DNA from: Pirellulales bacterium
Lineage (GTDB): Bacteria > Planctomycetota > Planctomycetia > Pirellulales > JAEUIK01
DNA length: 64,000 nucleotides
Reading direction: 5' to 3'
NCBI GenBank assembly: GCA_019694435.1
Contig: JAIBBZ010000007.1
Coordinates: forward strand, 62,001-126,000
Below are positions 12,779 through 17,858 of this stretch, piece after piece; positions within the stretch are counted from its first letter, which is position 1; each line of letters starts with the position of its first letter. Below the pieces are notes generated by a model. The model made no database searches. It was given only the letters and a program-made list of their open reading frames with translations, and was not told the origin of the DNA. The position numbers and the translations under genes were made by a program.

Positions 12779-13411
12779 ATGTCCATTCGCATCGTCATCG
12801 CCGACGACCATGCTGTTGTTCGCGATGGCCTGATCATGTTGTTGGCAGGCACCGAAATCGAAGTTGTCGGCCAGGCGGCGACGGGCGACGAAGCCGTGCG
12901 GTTGGCCTCAGAGTTGAAGCCTAGCCTTGTCCTGCTCGATGTGCGCATGGGCGGGGGCGACGGCCTGGCAGCTTTGGGCCGCCTGAAAATCGACCATCCC
13001 GACCAGGCCGTGCTGATGTTCTCGGCCTACGACAATCCCACCTACGTCGCGCGGGCCGTGGCGCTCGGCGCGGCGGGCTATTTGCTCAAGGAATGCACTC
13101 GCGATGAATTGCTGACGGCCATTCGGGCCGTCGCGGCGGGCGACGCCATCTGGACGCGGGAAGAATTGCGACGGGTCACCGGCGCCTTGGCCGCGCCGCG
13201 GCTGGGGGGCGATACGGAGGTGCCCCTGACCCAACGCGAGGCGGACGTTCTGCGCCAGATCGCCTTGGGCTTGACGAATCGCGAGATCGCCCAGACGCTG
13301 GATATCAGCTACGAGACGGTCAAAGAGCACGTGCAAAACATGCTCCGCAAGATCGGCGTCTCGGATCGCACCCAAGCAGCGGTGTGGGCGGTCCGTAAGG
13401 GCCTGGTGTGA
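12779..13411 (+). CDS. NarL/LuxR-family two-component response regulator
   Basis: 210 residues. The N-terminal receiver has the acidic pair in VIADDHAVV, phospho-acceptor Asp in LVLLDVRMG, Ser in LMFSAYD and Lys in GYLLKECT. The C-terminal LuxR-type helix-turn-helix is LTQREADVLRQIALG followed by TNREIAQTLDIS and TVKEHVQNMLRKIGV. An in-frame GTG at 12767 is possible, but ATG 12779 matches the family start. No cognate kinase is adjacent; the nearest in the window is the hybrid kinase at 5974-8436, so it is formally an orphan. Confidence 0.9.
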   Translation: MSIRIVIADDHAVVRDGLIMLLAGTEIEVVGQAATGDEAVRLASELKPSLVLLDVRMGGGDGLAALGRLKIDHPDQAVLMFSAYDNPTYVARAVALGAAGYLLKECTRDELLTAIRAVAAGDAIWTREELRRVTGALAAPRLGGDTEVPLTQREADVLRQIALGLTNREIAQTLDISYETVKEHVQNMLRKIGVSDRTQAAVWAVRKGLV

Positions 13412-13464
13412 TTCAGGTCGCCCGCGCCGCCGAACCGTCGCCGTCTCGACGAGGGCCACGCACG

Positions 13465-13776
13465 ATGCAGGTCGAAATCGTCTATTGCTTGCCTTGCGGA
13501 TATCGCCCTTTGGCACGCCAGGTGGCAGCCCGGCTCGAACGCGAACACGGTGCGCAGGTGATGCTCCGGGCCGGTTTTCCGGGGATGTTCCGGGTCGTCG
13601 CCGATGGCAGCGAAATCTACGACAAGCGGCGGACGCGCGGCTGGCTGGGCAAAATCGGCTTTGGCCGCGTACCCGAGGTCGACGAGGTGGTGTCGTTAGT
13701 CTCGGCCGCGGCGCGGCGCGAATCGAGCCACCACAGCCCGGCGAACAAGGGCGCGAGCACGACCGCGGCCCATTGA
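13465..13776 (+). CDS. Rdx-family protein (SelT/SelW/SelH-like, Cys form)
   Basis: 103 residues from ATG 13465. VEIVYCLPCGY gives the CxxC redox motif at the start of a thioredoxin-like fold, followed by ARLEREHGAQVMLRAGFPGMFRVVADG and a conserved G-rich end (GKIGFGRVPEVDEVV). The family is thought to act in thiol redox reactions; here the selenocysteine position is Cys. The core ends near residue 85. The remaining Ser/Ala-rich tail is encoded opposite the 3' end of the Lgt-like gene, an overlap of 160 nt. Confidence 0.8.
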   Translation: MQVEIVYCLPCGYRPLARQVAARLEREHGAQVMLRAGFPGMFRVVADGSEIYDKRRTRGWLGKIGFGRVPEVDEVVSLVSAAARRESSHHSPANKGASTTAAH

Positions 13777-14387
13777 TATCCGGTCCAGCCGAGCCACATC
13801 TCCGGCTCTGGGCGCCACTCCTCCGACACAAAGCGGTAGGCCAGATACGCGAGGATGTACAGCTTGATCAGTTGGCGCCGCAAAGCACCACGCCGGTACA
13901 GCCGCCAGAGGATCAGGGCTGCCGCGAAATGGAACGCGGCTTCGTAGAGTTGCGCGGGATGACGGCGCACCCCGTCCCCGAAATCGACGCCCCAGGGAAG
14001 TATCGTTGCGGTGCCGTAGCAGCACCCGCCCACGAAGCAAGCGAGTCGCCCGACGGCAATCGATGCCGCAACCGGCACCGCAAAGCTGTCGCCTGTCTTG
14101 GTGCGAATGTGCAAGGCCCACTTCGCCACCTCGACGCCCAGGTAGCCGCCTACCAGCCCGAGCACGATCGTCTTGCCCGAGGGCGCGAACCAGTCGGCTT
14201 GCGTCCAGTCGCGGGCAGCGCCGAGCACAAAGGGGAGGCGCGCGGTGAACATCGCCCCGCATAGGGCACCGATCGCGAGCCCGATGCGCTCGCCGCGCCG
14301 CAGCGGAGCCTCGGTTGGAAAGCGCCTGGACACGATCAGGCCCGTCGCTAGGGCCACCCCCATGGCGCCGGCGTACGCCAGATTCAT
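13617..14387 (-). CDS. Lgt-like (prolipoprotein diacylglyceryl transferase family) membrane protein
   Basis: 256 residues with about six or seven membrane segments. It resembles Lgt in its overall plan and in RHPAQLYEA (Lgt HPSQLYE). The Lgt signature GRxGNFxNxE is changed to GRLACFVGGCCYG, the Cys-containing form of an uncharacterised subfamily, so the Glu and Asn known from E. coli Lgt are missing. It may transfer a glycerolipid group to something other than a lipoprotein Cys. ATG 14387 overlaps the stop of the radical SAM gene (ATGA), so the two are probably co-translated. The last 35 or so residues are polar and lie antisense to the Rdx gene tail. Confidence 0.75.
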   Translation of the reverse strand: MNLAYAGAMGVALATGLIVSRRFPTEAPLRRGERIGLAIGALCGAMFTARLPFVLGAARDWTQADWFAPSGKTIVLGLVGGYLGVEVAKWALHIRTKTGDSFAVPVAASIAVGRLACFVGGCCYGTATILPWGVDFGDGVRRHPAQLYEAAFHFAAALILWRLYRRGALRRQLIKLYILAYLAYRFVSEEWRPEPEMWLGWTGYQWAAVVLAPLFAGLWWLDSRRAAAETNDTTSSTSGTRPKPILPSQPRVRRLS

Positions 14388-15901
14388 CGTCCAGGTTCCG
14401 CTAGCTGCACCAGCGGTGCCGCGGCTCGCGACACCGGGGCGTCGATCTGCAGCTTTTCCAGCGTTGGCAGCGGCACGTGCCCTTCGCGGTACAGCACGTT
14501 GTAGGCACAAAACGGCACGACGTGCCCGCTGGGCAAAACGTGGTGGATGCAGCACTTCATCAGTCGCCGCAGATCGAAGTTATAGGCGTCGAGAAACGAA
14601 GTGATCGTGATGCGCAGCACGTCTTCCGGATCGACCTGCTCGGCCAAGGCCCGGCGGAAGAACTCTTCGGCCAGCTCGTCGCGCGGTGCTGGCGCGTCGC
14701 CAAGCACGGGCAACCCGGGCTGGTCTTCCTTGTCCGGTCCCAACGTGGGCCCGCAGCCACAGCCGGGGCCGCACGCGCCGACTCGCGCCAAATATTCTTC
14801 AATCAACTGCCGAGCCCGAGGCCGGTTAAAGGTGATGCCGCCTGAAAGCAGCTCGAGATGCTCGTGGGCGTTGATGAATCGCGTGAGCGGGCGTGCCCTG
14901 CCTTGGCTGCGATACAAATAGCTCAGCGTGTGGCAATTCGGGTGCGCACAGGGCAGCGGCAAGAAATCGTCGGACTGGAAAAGCCCGTCACACTGCTCGA
15001 CCAGTGCCCGCACCACGTCGGGAAAGGTCACGCGGTTTTCGAGGTCGGCAGGTAAGACGTGCCGTCCACTGTAAGTGGCCGGTTGAAAGCTGACGCCCGT
15101 AATCCAGGGGCGCACGATGGCAAACCGCACGAGGTCGCCGACCTCGTCGAGATTCAAGTCGCCTTGCAACGTGGCGACGAGAGTTGTGCGCAGCCCTTGG
15201 CGGCCCAATTTTTCAACGGCCCGCAATTTTGTAGCCAGCAGCGGCTCGCCGCGGAGTTCGCGATAGCTCGATTCGCGCAGGCCGTCGAACTGCAGGTAGA
15301 TCTCCAGCCGCTTGCGTCGCGCCGCGAGTTTTTCCAGCAAGTCGTCGTCGTTCGCCAGCCGGATCCCGTTGGTGTTGATCATCACCACGTCGATCGGCTG
15401 GTTGCAGGCGTACTCGACCAGCTGGACAAACTCGGGGTGCAAAGTGGGCTCGCCGCCGGAAAGTTGCACCACTTCGGCCCGACCTTCGACCTCGACCAGG
15501 CGATCGATGGCACGGCAGGCATCGGCCAGGCTCAGGTGTTTGCCGCCCGGTCCGCTCGAGGCGAAGCACATCGGGCAGCGCAGATTGCACGAGTCGGTGA
15601 TTTCAACCAGCCCTACGCAGGTGTGTTGCTCGTGTTCGGTGCAGAGGCCGCAATCGTACGGGCAGCCGCGTTGCGGCGTGGTGCCAAATTCCGCCGGGAT
15701 GCGGCCCGGCACGCTGTATTCGAGGCGGTCGTAGGCCGACACGTCCGAGCAGATGAAATCCTCGCGTGTGCCGTGCGTCGGACAGTGCTTGCGGAAATAG
15801 ACGCGCCCCTGCCTCACCAGAATCTTCGCCGGTACCACGGCCAGGCACTCCGGGCAAAGGCTCTGCGTGGTGCCAAGCATTGTGTAGTCGCGCAGTTGCA
15901 T
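14384..15901 (-). CDS. Radical SAM protein of the MJ0619/tetraether-synthase (Tes) type
   Basis: 505 residues. The N-terminus has a zinc-type knot (C16, C19, C40, H43: CPEC and CPTHG). A second Cys cluster follows (C80, C84, C87 in GCPYDCGLC), then the radical SAM motif CNLRCPMC (C105, C109, C112), SGGEPTLH for SAM binding and INTNGIRLA. The C-terminus has GPGCGCGP and a CCIHHV...PFCAYNVL segment. This three-cluster layout is that of the archaeal MJ0619 family, first linked to methylation of a pterin and later to joining lipid tails in tetraether synthesis. AGGAG lies 13 nt before ATG 15901. Fourth gene of a five-gene minus operon; the Lgt-like gene downstream favours a lipid substrate, which is inference. 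Confidence 0.75.
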   Translation of the reverse strand: MQLRDYTMLGTTQSLCPECLAVVPAKILVRQGRVYFRKHCPTHGTREDFICSDVSAYDRLEYSVPGRIPAEFGTTPQRGCPYDCGLCTEHEQHTCVGLVEITDSCNLRCPMCFASSGPGGKHLSLADACRAIDRLVEVEGRAEVVQLSGGEPTLHPEFVQLVEYACNQPIDVVMINTNGIRLANDDDLLEKLAARRKRLEIYLQFDGLRESSYRELRGEPLLATKLRAVEKLGRQGLRTTLVATLQGDLNLDEVGDLVRFAIVRPWITGVSFQPATYSGRHVLPADLENRVTFPDVVRALVEQCDGLFQSDDFLPLPCAHPNCHTLSYLYRSQGRARPLTRFINAHEHLELLSGGITFNRPRARQLIEEYLARVGACGPGCGCGPTLGPDKEDQPGLPVLGDAPAPRDELAEEFFRRALAEQVDPEDVLRITITSFLDAYNFDLRRLMKCCIHHVLPSGHVVPFCAYNVLYREGHVPLPTLEKLQIDAPVSRAAAPLVQLAEPGR

Positions 15902-15915
15902 GCTTCGTGTGGCTC

Positions 15916-16533
15916 CTACGGCCGAGGCTGATCCTGGTTCAAGTCTTCAAGCTCGCGACGCAGGCCGCGCGCGGAAAATCGATAAATCACCGCGCTCACG
16001 AGTGCGACAACAACCGCCGTAACCCCAGCGATCGTCAGCATTCGATTGGAGAGGCGGGCGAAAGACTCTTCGTTCGCCTGGCGGCCGGACGTCTGGTTTA
16101 CGCAAGCCATGAAAAAGAAGGCCGCCATCGCAACAACCGCATAGGCGGATACCGCCAGGGTGGTGATTGTGATCCAGATGGCTTCGAGCGGCGTGGGCCC
16201 CGAATCGCGGCGCAACGCGATCAGGCCTGCGTGAATCAAGAGAGGCAGAACCATGATCACGAACATCAGCCCTGCTGCAGGCGCCACGGCCGTGAGGCCG
16301 GCAGTTACGACGATCAGATCGAACAACACCAGCGCAGTCGTGAGATTGCCCGCGGAGGACCCGCGGGCAGGCCGCGCGGCGTATCTTTGTACGGTGGTGT
16401 TTACTCTGGCCTTACAAAGCCAACAGGGAACGATGATCGGTGCGTCGTCTGCGAGCACGTTCATGGCCCCGCACTTCGGACAAAGGAAAGCTGACGCAGG
16501 CTCGGCAGTTGGGCTGTTTGAAGCTTCAATCAT
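15916..16533 (-). CDS. Zinc-ribbon membrane protein (paralog of the next gene upstream)
   Basis: 205 residues from ATG 16533 (an in-frame GTG at 16542 is also possible). The N-terminal knuckle FLCPKCGAMNV plus PCWLCKARV forms a four-Cys zinc ribbon. It is followed by four membrane segments (roughly residues 68-86, 90-107, 120-145, 165-185) and a basic/acidic C-terminal tail. Its arrangement and CPxCGAxN...CWLC motif match the neighbouring product of 16546-17187, so the two probably arose by tandem duplication. It lies 14 nt upstream of the radical SAM gene. Function unknown; likely an accessory or scaffold protein of this operon. Confidence 0.7.
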   Translation of the reverse strand: MIEASNSPTAEPASAFLCPKCGAMNVLADDAPIIVPCWLCKARVNTTVQRYAARPARGSSAGNLTTALVLFDLIVVTAGLTAVAPAAGLMFVIMVLPLLIHAGLIALRRDSGPTPLEAIWITITTLAVSAYAVVAMAAFFFMACVNQTSGRQANEESFARLSNRMLTIAGVTAVVVALVSAVIYRFSARGLRRELEDLNQDQPRP

Positions 16534-16545
16534 TCGGCGCACGAC

Positions 16546-17187
16546 TCAGAGTGCCTGAGTGCTAGAGGGGGGCTCGTCGCAGGGTGGCGCGGTGTTCCGC
16601 GCGCGCCAAAAGAATCTCAGCAGTCCGACCAGCACCAGCAAAGCGGCCACAGCACCCAGCACGGCACCAAACATCAAGTCGTAGCTCAGCGCCTCTTCGC
16701 TGCCCACGCCCAAGGATTCGAGCGCCAAGGCACCGCCTACGAACCCGGCCGTACAGACCGCCAAGAATGCTCCCGCGGCCGAAACCCAGGCCACGAATAC
16801 CGCGCCGGCCGACGACCAGAGCAGCAGGAATTTTTCGCCCAACGTGGCCGGTTGGCCGCGCCGGCGGAGGACGACGGTCGTGCGAATGAGCGCGGGCAGG
16901 GTCAGCAGGAAGAACAGGACGGCCATCGGTGGTGCCGCGGCCAGCAACCCGAAGAAGATCGCCACCAGCGTGATGCACAACAGCAGGGAACTCAGACCGA
17001 ACTGCAGCGGCCGTTGCTCGGTTGCCGGCGAGGAGGCGCGCATCGCATCGGCGGCACCGAAGACACGCCGGCACAACCAACACTCCGCTGGCCGCGGCGC
17101 GCCGGGGATGGTCAGATTTGCAGCGCCGCATTCGGGGCAGATGATGGCGTCGGCAATGGGTTCAGCGGTCTCGGTCGCGGAACTCAA
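16546..17187 (-). CDS. Zinc-ribbon membrane protein (tandem paralog)
   Basis: 213 residues. The start is TTG 17187, set by AAGGAG seven bases upstream; the TTG overlaps the stop of the previous gene (TTGA). The zinc ribbon is IICPECGAANL with ECWLCRRVF, followed by membrane segments at SSLLLCITLVAIFFGLLAA, MAVLFFLLTLPALI, AGAVFVAWVSAAGAFLAV and AVLGAVAALLVLVGLL. It is a paralog of the product of 15916-16533, with a longer final helical pair. The frame is open much further upstream, but that part is a shadow of the preceding gene. Function unknown. Confidence 0.7.
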   Translation of the reverse strand: MSSATETAEPIADAIICPECGAANLTIPGAPRPAECWLCRRVFGAADAMRASSPATEQRPLQFGLSSLLLCITLVAIFFGLLAAAPPMAVLFFLLTLPALIRTTVVLRRRGQPATLGEKFLLLWSSAGAVFVAWVSAAGAFLAVCTAGFVGGALALESLGVGSEEALSYDLMFGAVLGAVAALLVLVGLLRFFWRARNTAPPCDEPPSSTQAL

Positions 17188-17858
17188 GGGCGGGCTCCTT
17201 CTGCTGTCAGACGCGCGACGTCCGCCTCCTGGCGTCGGGCATAGTCCGCGGCGATGCCGCGCACGCGCCGAATCAGTTGGCCCAGGAGCACTCCGGAAAA
17301 CATCAGGGCCAGCAAAAAGATCAACTGGTAGTAGCGGGGTACGATCACCGTTTCGGGCTGCGGCGCATACCAGCGGGCATAGCCAAGCAGAAACAAGTAG
17401 CCGGCCAGGGCGCAGCCGGTCGCGAACCAGACCAGCGACAAGCTGAATCGCAGTCCAGCCAGGAGTATCAGCAGGAAATAGACCACCAGCAACGGGCTGC
17501 GCGGGCCGGCGGCGATGGTCAGCAGGCCGGTCAACAGCGCCATGTCCGCGGCCGTCGTGACGAACTTGAATGCCGGCGGAAAGTATTGCTGCCGCAGGCT
17601 CGAATAGACGCCCAGGGCGAGCGCCGACCACGCCGCGCATAGCACGGTCACAGCCAGATGAAATCGTCCGTCGACGCCTTCGACCTTGGGCAGTTCGAGC
17701 CCGCCCAGCCGCAGGCCGTGATAGTTGATCAACTCGACGGTGTAGAAGCCGCCGATCCCGATGGTGCGCAGCAGGTTGGCCCGCAGCTCACCTTCGTACT
17801 GCTGCCAACGATCGGTGATGTACCAAGGCCGATCCTGCGCCCCGGGAAGTGCATTCAT
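17184..17858 (-). CDS. Multi-pass membrane protein of unknown function (first gene of the radical SAM/Lgt-like operon)
   Basis: 224 residues from ATG 17858. After about 55 soluble residues come five or six hydrophobic segments (LAVTVLCAAWSALALGVY, AADMALLTGLLTIAAG, PLLVVYFLLILLAGL, LVWFATGCALAGYLFLLGY, YYQLIFLLALMFSGVLLG) and a short charged cytoplasmic end (RRVRGIAADYARRQEAD). The layout resembles the membrane sensor module of some planctomycete kinases, but no kinase or cyclase domain follows. Its stop overlaps the TTG of the next gene. The PBP4-type peptidase gene is divergent, with its start about 200 nt away. Confidence 0.6.
   Translation of the reverse strand: MNALPGAQDRPWYITDRWQQYEGELRANLLRTIGIGGFYTVELINYHGLRLGGLELPKVEGVDGRFHLAVTVLCAAWSALALGVYSSLRQQYFPPAFKFVTTAADMALLTGLLTIAAGPRSPLLVVYFLLILLAGLRFSLSLVWFATGCALAGYLFLLGYARWYAPQPETVIVPRYYQLIFLLALMFSGVLLGQLIRRVRGIAADYARRQEADVARLTAEGARP

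Follow-up and report, generated by a model that had tools for sequence, protein, structure and literature searches.

Homologues of the archaeal tetraether synthase (Tes) are known in bacteria, Planctomycetota included, and surveys have listed them as potential sources of membrane-spanning lipids (PMC8941075, PMC11868695). In the archaeal proteins, Lloyd et al. found that the residues equivalent to Met439 and Tyr459 of MJ0619 were completely conserved in 1000 homologues, and the M439A variant of MJ0619 remains active (PMC9433317). For the prolipoprotein-modifying enzyme Lgt, Mao et al. positioned R143 and R239 by the phosphatidylglycerol donor and proposed the H103-GGL region as the binding site of the lipobox peptide, H103 being essential in E. 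coli (PMC4728403). TrsS, in turn, is an already named selenoprotein family of radical SAM proteins. A literature search, which was carried out mostly outside subscription journals, found no description of a radical SAM (rSAM) protein paired with an Lgt-like protein or of small cysteine-bearing membrane proteins that accompany them. In this study, which was based on a 64,000-nt stretch of DNA from a Pirellulales bacterium (the window) and on the comparison of related loci, we describe such a pair together with a recurrent third part, the small Cys membrane proteins encoded beside it, which is new here. This recurrent set, found in many unrelated bacteria, may represent an undescribed route to attach or alter lipids on membrane proteins.

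An ORF reading of the window resolved five tightly packed genes on the minus strand between 17858 and 13617 (Table 1), which bears out the five-gene operon of the original prediction. Neighbouring genes overlap by 4 nt at two of their four junctions (TTGA and ATGA) and are separated by 3 and 14 nt at the others. The rSAM and Lgt-like genes had been called fused; the genes do share the 4-nt overlap, but their products are not one fused protein. The three membrane proteins that were said to precede the pair were all found, but two of them, genes 2 and 3, proved in addition to be tandem zinc-ribbon paralogues (about 30% identical) and are the likely targets of the system. The start codon of gene 2 is TTG, lies within a 4-nt overlap with the stop of gene 1 and has AGAAGGAG upstream, while gene 3 starts either with GTG or with an ATG at 16533. 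Gene 1 gave no significant match to Pfam or NCBIfam; its homologues, which are 38-55% identical, adjoin rSAM/Lgt-like pairs and were present in 22 of the 40 loci read in the Pirellulales, the taxonomic order of the window. It constitutes a separate conserved family, which so far accompanies the pair in planctomycetes alone. On the opposite strand, a SelT/SelW/SelH (Rdx) family protein with a CxxC motif is encoded at 13408-13776, convergent with the operon and with its 3' end overlapping the Lgt-like gene by 160 nt; no such gene was found beside the other rSAM/Lgt-like loci that were examined.

Table 1. Features of the five-gene operon, with positions given in the window
Feature	Position	Strand	Remark
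Gene 1, multi-TM membrane protein, 224 aa	17184..17858	-	ATG start; translation
Gene 2, zinc-ribbon and TM helices, putative lipidation substrate 1	16546..17187	-	Cys145
Codon of Cys145 in gene 2, conserved helix-end Cys (GAFLAVC-TAGF)	16753..16755	-	
Gene 3, zinc-ribbon and TM helices, tandem paralogue of gene 2, putative lipidation substrate 2	15916..16542	-	Cys147
Codon of Cys147 in gene 3, conserved helix-end Cys (FFFMAC-VNQT)	16102..16104	-	
Tes/TrsS-like three-cluster rSAM protein, 505 aa	14384..15901	-	Profiles, model, residue alignment
Codon of rSAM Cys105, first Cys of the CNLRCPMC radical SAM motif	15587..15589	-	Aligns with CX3CX2C of MJ0619
Codon of rSAM Cys383, in the Cys-rich loop CGPGCGCGP	14753..14755	-	
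Lgt-like membrane protein, 256 aa	13617..14387	-	ATG overlaps rSAM stop by 4 nt

Against Pfam, the rSAM protein scored 81 bits for Radical_SAM and 69 bits for the HMPTM zinc ribbon. Its best full-length model was NCBIfam TrsS (NF045646; 347.6 bits over residues 11-474, below the cut-off of 490), and NCBIfam Tes (NF045702) gave 294.8 bits, below its cut-off of 450, with the N-terminal 310 residues matching best; true Nitrososphaerota Tes score 690-698 bits on the same model. The closest curated family is TrsS and not Tes, but neither cut-off was reached and membership in TrsS is not established; in the 12 planctomycete genomes that were searched, there was no TrsS match over the cut-off. By sequence, GDGT-MAS was the only strong solved relative, and the AlphaFold2 model (51 sequences, pLDDT 89.6) matched its structures (PDB 7tol and 7tom) with a Z of 50.2 over 427 residues and 34% identity, the next structural neighbour outside GDGT-MAS standing at Z 21. 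The residue alignment showed that every alignable cluster ligand of MJ0619 is kept: C16, C19, C40 and H43 at the rubredoxin-like site, C80, C84, C87 and H90 at the N-terminal cluster, C105, C109 and C112 at the radical SAM cluster, and C323, C450, C451 and C465 as the Cys of the C-terminal cluster domain. At the positions of Met439 and Tyr459, the window protein has Thr434 and His454. In a maximum-likelihood tree of 59 proteins, it was placed among the Lgt-linked planctomycete proteins, and the grouping of this clade with archaeal Tes was rejected (AU p=8.55e-5); the full-length Tes in this tree and in the residue table are two Nitrososphaerota proteins (L135 and L136), and the MJ0619 row of both is an incomplete chain that was assembled from alignment output and has one extra T. 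The predicted MJ0619/Tes family thus holds for the fold and the metal ligands, yet the protein lies outside archaeal Tes, and Tes membership is rejected. Two further assignments were considered and dropped: pterin methylation, which rests on an annotation of MJ0619 that was found to be incorrect (PMC9433317), so that a placement in a pterin-methylating branch, originally named as a refutation, has no force, and links to sulfolipids, selenium or methanopterin, to which the neighbouring genes give no support. A likeness to Gms or GrsA was also set aside because Gms is described as a SPASM rSAM protein with a different domain plan (PMC11186832).

The prediction of an Lgt-family membrane protein agrees well with the match to Pfam LGT (PF01790; 81.4 bits, gathering cut-off 24.9) and with the retention of the donor-binding residues. 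The score against the equivalog TIGR00544 was 36.8 bits, below the cut-off of 118.9, and a canonical, stronger Lgt is encoded elsewhere in the genome; the protein belongs to the LGT fold family as an additional copy and is not a canonical Lgt. Its AlphaFold2 model (pLDDT 91.0) matched E. coli Lgt (PDB 5azb) with a Z of 13.7 over 226 aligned residues, followed by the next structure at Z 5.8; structural alignment gave 18% identity to E. coli Lgt, and the identity to the canonical Lgt of the genome was 26%. R143, R239 and Y235 were invariant in all 40 members of the Lgt-like subfamily that were compared, the donor-site Arg residues of the window protein being R114 and R185, and His103 was replaced in all 40, by Val in the window and by L, V, M, T, E or W in its relatives. 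The loss of His103 alone does not prove that activity was lost, since the canonical Lgt of this genome has a Tyr at position 103. Judging by these residues, the donor chemistry looks to have been kept and the recognition of the acceptor to have changed.

The linkage between the two genes, which the original prediction expected to recur in other genomes, was found in multiple phyla and in both gene orders, the Lgt-like gene being upstream of rSAM in some loci and downstream in others. From 199 sampled planctomycete genomes, 30 rSAM loci were read, the window included, and in 19 of these an Lgt-like gene was located within 1.5 kb of rSAM; in about 54 of the 80 loci of named genomes it lay inside the flank that was read; these 80 loci place the pair in Planctomycetota, Bacteroidota, Chloroflexota, Cyanobacteriota, Melainabacteria, Pseudomonadota and Myxococcota. 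Within the Pirellulales, rSAM was present in 52 of 196 genomes and was followed by an Lgt-like gene on the same strand in 34 of the 40 loci read. Because the adjacency recurs across phyla, it is not a product of chance. The rSAM relatives without an Lgt-like gene in Chloroflexota, Nitrososphaerota and Acidobacteriota mostly adjoin a methyltransferase related to DVU_1556 (136.8 bits against the family, whose cut-off is 155), with L076, L117 and L121 as exceptions in this part of the tree. Two Nitrososphaerota genomes (G199 and G200) have a TrsS-like rSAM gene (L077 and L078) beside a DVU_1556-like methyltransferase and also carry true Tes over the cut-off (L135 and L136). A further arrangement was observed in three planctomycete loci (L039, L042 and L047, from G065, G149 and G044), where two tandem Tes-like rSAM genes occur without an Lgt-like gene and are accompanied by FabF-like pairs, SDR/FabG-like genes and another rSAM gene, with an acyl-carrier-like protein in two of them, as identified by sequence and cluster. 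These rSAM proteins are better candidates for bacterial lipid-tail coupling than that of the window.

The pair is adjoined by one to five small multi-TM proteins whose sequences have diverged and which share one trait, a single conserved Cys that closes, on the outer side, an inside-to-outside helix preceded by a basic loop, the orientation being that predicted by the positive-inside rule. Such a protein is near-universal at the Bacteroidota pair loci and present at many others. When it was defined by at least two TM helices and a helix-terminal Cys, and same-strand flanking windows were used as the background, 31 of 34 Bacteroidota loci had a matching protein next to the pair, compared to 3 of 59 background windows (Fisher p 7e-18, a test that treats related loci as independent). 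In the other phyla, it was found in 16 of 35 loci compared to 5 of 61 (Fisher p 3e-5, under the same assumption and with the two-TM rule chosen afterwards, a looser helix-end Cys rule having a higher background and a non-Bacteroidota p of 0.02). The rSAM loci without an Lgt-like gene outside Bacteroidota were at the background level (3/28 vs 2/38); three Bacteroidota loci that were listed as lacking the Lgt-like gene have the small protein, and their contigs stop just before rSAM. At about nine non-Bacteroidota loci, there was no small Cys protein nearby. In the Bacteroidota alignment, the Cys was the most conserved column (34 of 35 rows), and a subset of 15 rows has the motif G-x-C-G. A profile of this subset was run over 12 whole Bacteroidota genomes and returned one strong match in eleven of them and two tandem matches in the remaining one; all of the strong matches were at the rSAM/Lgt-like locus, and the other matches were weak. 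None of the small proteins that were sampled exceeded any Pfam or NCBIfam cut-off. In the Pirellulales, they are zinc-ribbon/TM proteins that number up to five per operon, and the Cys was present in 61 of 65 of these planctomycete proteins (58 by the rule and three by eye). The sequence before the Cys is F-F-x-x-C in planctomycetes compared to G-x-C-G in Bacteroidota, and across phyla only a common architecture can be claimed, homology not being demonstrable. In three Pseudomonadota loci (L092, L118 and L132), the Cys is at the end of the first TM helix, in the contexts LLLPGLCAGAF, AAAGLCSLVF and FPGGCSLLAIF, respectively, which is nearer to a lipobox than elsewhere.

The two full-length Nitrososphaerota Tes lack the Cys-rich loop of the window rSAM protein, CGPGCGCGP, in whose place other bacterial relatives show CC, CxC or LLCCLP. 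At what may be the Sec/Cys site of TrsS, the window sequence GCGCGP corresponds to GESCGP in one relative (L007, genome G109) and to GES-TGA-GP in an Lgt-linked one (L006, genome G115). A selenocysteine reading of this in-frame TGA is likely, because the equivalent in G109 has a Cys and SelB was found over the cut-off in G115; L006 is probably a selenoprotein. SelB was also found over the cut-off in the genome of the window (G000:C3:226990-228879), although its rSAM protein uses Cys.

The combination of a constant enzyme pair with variable, multiplied small proteins that have one fixed Cys corresponds to the pattern of modifying enzymes and their substrates, and tandem repetition, with as many as five copies in an operon, is typical of substrates. 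We tentatively favour, as possible but short of probable, a dedicated system in which the Lgt-like protein lipidates the Cys of the small proteins and rSAM changes either the acyl tails or the site of modification. The small proteins, which are genes 2 and 3 in the window and number one to five elsewhere, would present their helix-end Cys in the manner of a lipobox Cys, and the Lgt-like protein, with its donor-site and catalytic residues retained and its acceptor site altered, would move diacylglyceryl from phosphatidylglycerol, or from a modified relative of it, onto this Cys. From the cytosolic side, rSAM would abstract a hydrogen from a carbon of the acyl chain or the peptide and would create a C-C or C-S bond, the most likely site being the acyl tails of either the donor or the lipidated protein. 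Diacylglyceryl transfer to Cys is favoured because the predicted orientation of the helix puts the Cys where Lgt acts. The gene order, its conservation, the folds, the metal ligands, the conserved Cys and its locus-specificity are observed here, whereas the topology, the Cys as acceptor, the donor lipid, the rSAM reaction and the sequence of the steps are inferred. Several points stand against this scheme. Given that E. coli Lgt cannot do without H103, the Lgt-like protein may lack transfer activity, and the residues ahead of the Cys do not form a canonical lipobox. Homology of the small proteins between phyla is not demonstrable, and about nine non-Bacteroidota loci have none nearby. Moreover, rSAM is cytosolic and the active site of Lgt faces out, so that the two steps would need opposite sides of the membrane. 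An extension of this scheme to a widespread bacterial pathway, in which the Lgt-like protein lipidates a Cys that terminates an internal or C-terminal TM helix and rSAM subsequently couples the acyl tail to a second lipid tail to give the membrane protein a cross-linked or membrane-spanning lipid anchor, seems to us rather improbable.

The pair could instead make a free unusual membrane lipid, i.e., a tail-coupled or otherwise modified diacylglycerol lipid, with the small proteins acting as accessory scaffolds. The Tes fold and ligands of rSAM and the proposals that bacterial and planctomycete Tes homologues are membrane-spanning-lipid enzymes (PMC8941075, PMC11868695) are in line with this reading. 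We nevertheless consider it unlikely, as rSAM is phylogenetically apart from Tes and lacks the Met439/Tyr459 pair, and as no recurrent fatty-acid or glycerolipid genes are found beside the pair, unlike in L039, L042 and L047. Moreover, a scaffold role would leave one invariant Cys in fast-diverging tandem proteins unexplained. Of the two products that were originally put forward, a membrane-spanning free lipid is consequently not favoured, rSAM being outside Tes and both residues being replaced, while the attachment of a modified lipid to a target comes nearer, with genes 2 and 3 as its likely targets.

If rSAM modified the Cys or a neighbouring residue directly, by a thioether or similar bond, the Lgt-like protein would bind or present the peptide with no lipid transfer. 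Small multicopy proteins beside an rSAM gene do resemble RiPP precursors, His103 of Lgt is lost, and RiPP maturases such as SuiB and SkfB come soon after GDGT-MAS in structural similarity. This last match, however, is a general similarity of the rSAM core only, the donor-site R143, R239 and Y235 are kept throughout the subfamily, and the Cys is predicted to be on the outer side while rSAM is cytosolic; we regard direct modification as fairly improbable. The Cys-rich loop of rSAM, with its probable Sec in one relative, and the zinc ribbons of some of the small proteins could also suggest that the latter are electron or thiol donors to the loop rather than substrates. A lone invariant Cys at the outer helix end is poorly suited to serving a cytosolic enzyme, and the copy number and sequence of the small proteins are too variable for such a role, which makes it very improbable.

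These findings set apart a large group of bacterial Tes homologues that are linked to an Lgt-like protein and small Cys proteins and lie outside archaeal Tes, a group that includes most of the Tes homologues that were retrieved here from Bacteroidota and Planctomycetota. If the favoured system acts on proteins, Lgt-linked Tes homologues should not be counted as evidence for tetraether lipids. The set also provides a candidate for a new protein modification that could be tested in bacteria amenable to genetics, such as Flavobacterium.

Compared with the known systems, the rSAM protein resembles GDGT-MAS and Tes in its fold, the rubredoxin site, the N-terminal cluster with a His ligand, the CX3CX2C motif and the aligned Cys of the C-terminal domain, and differs from them in its extra Cys/Sec loop and in the linked Lgt-like gene. 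It also differs from TrsS in its partner: the relatives without an Lgt-like gene mostly pair with the DVU_1556-related methyltransferase, whereas the window protein pairs with the Lgt-like protein. The Lgt-like protein shares with E. coli Lgt the fold, the signature GR, R143, R239, Y235, E243 and H196, but H103 is changed to an aliphatic residue (Val), N146 to Cys and the periplasmic head region is shortened. As in the lipobox of lipoproteins, the Cys of the small proteins terminates, on the outer side, a helix that runs from inside to outside and follows a basic segment. This helix, however, is internal or C-terminal and not an N-terminal signal peptide, and there is no canonical [LVI][ASTVI][GAS]C; because position -1 is often V, I, T or F, cleavage by LspA is unlikely.
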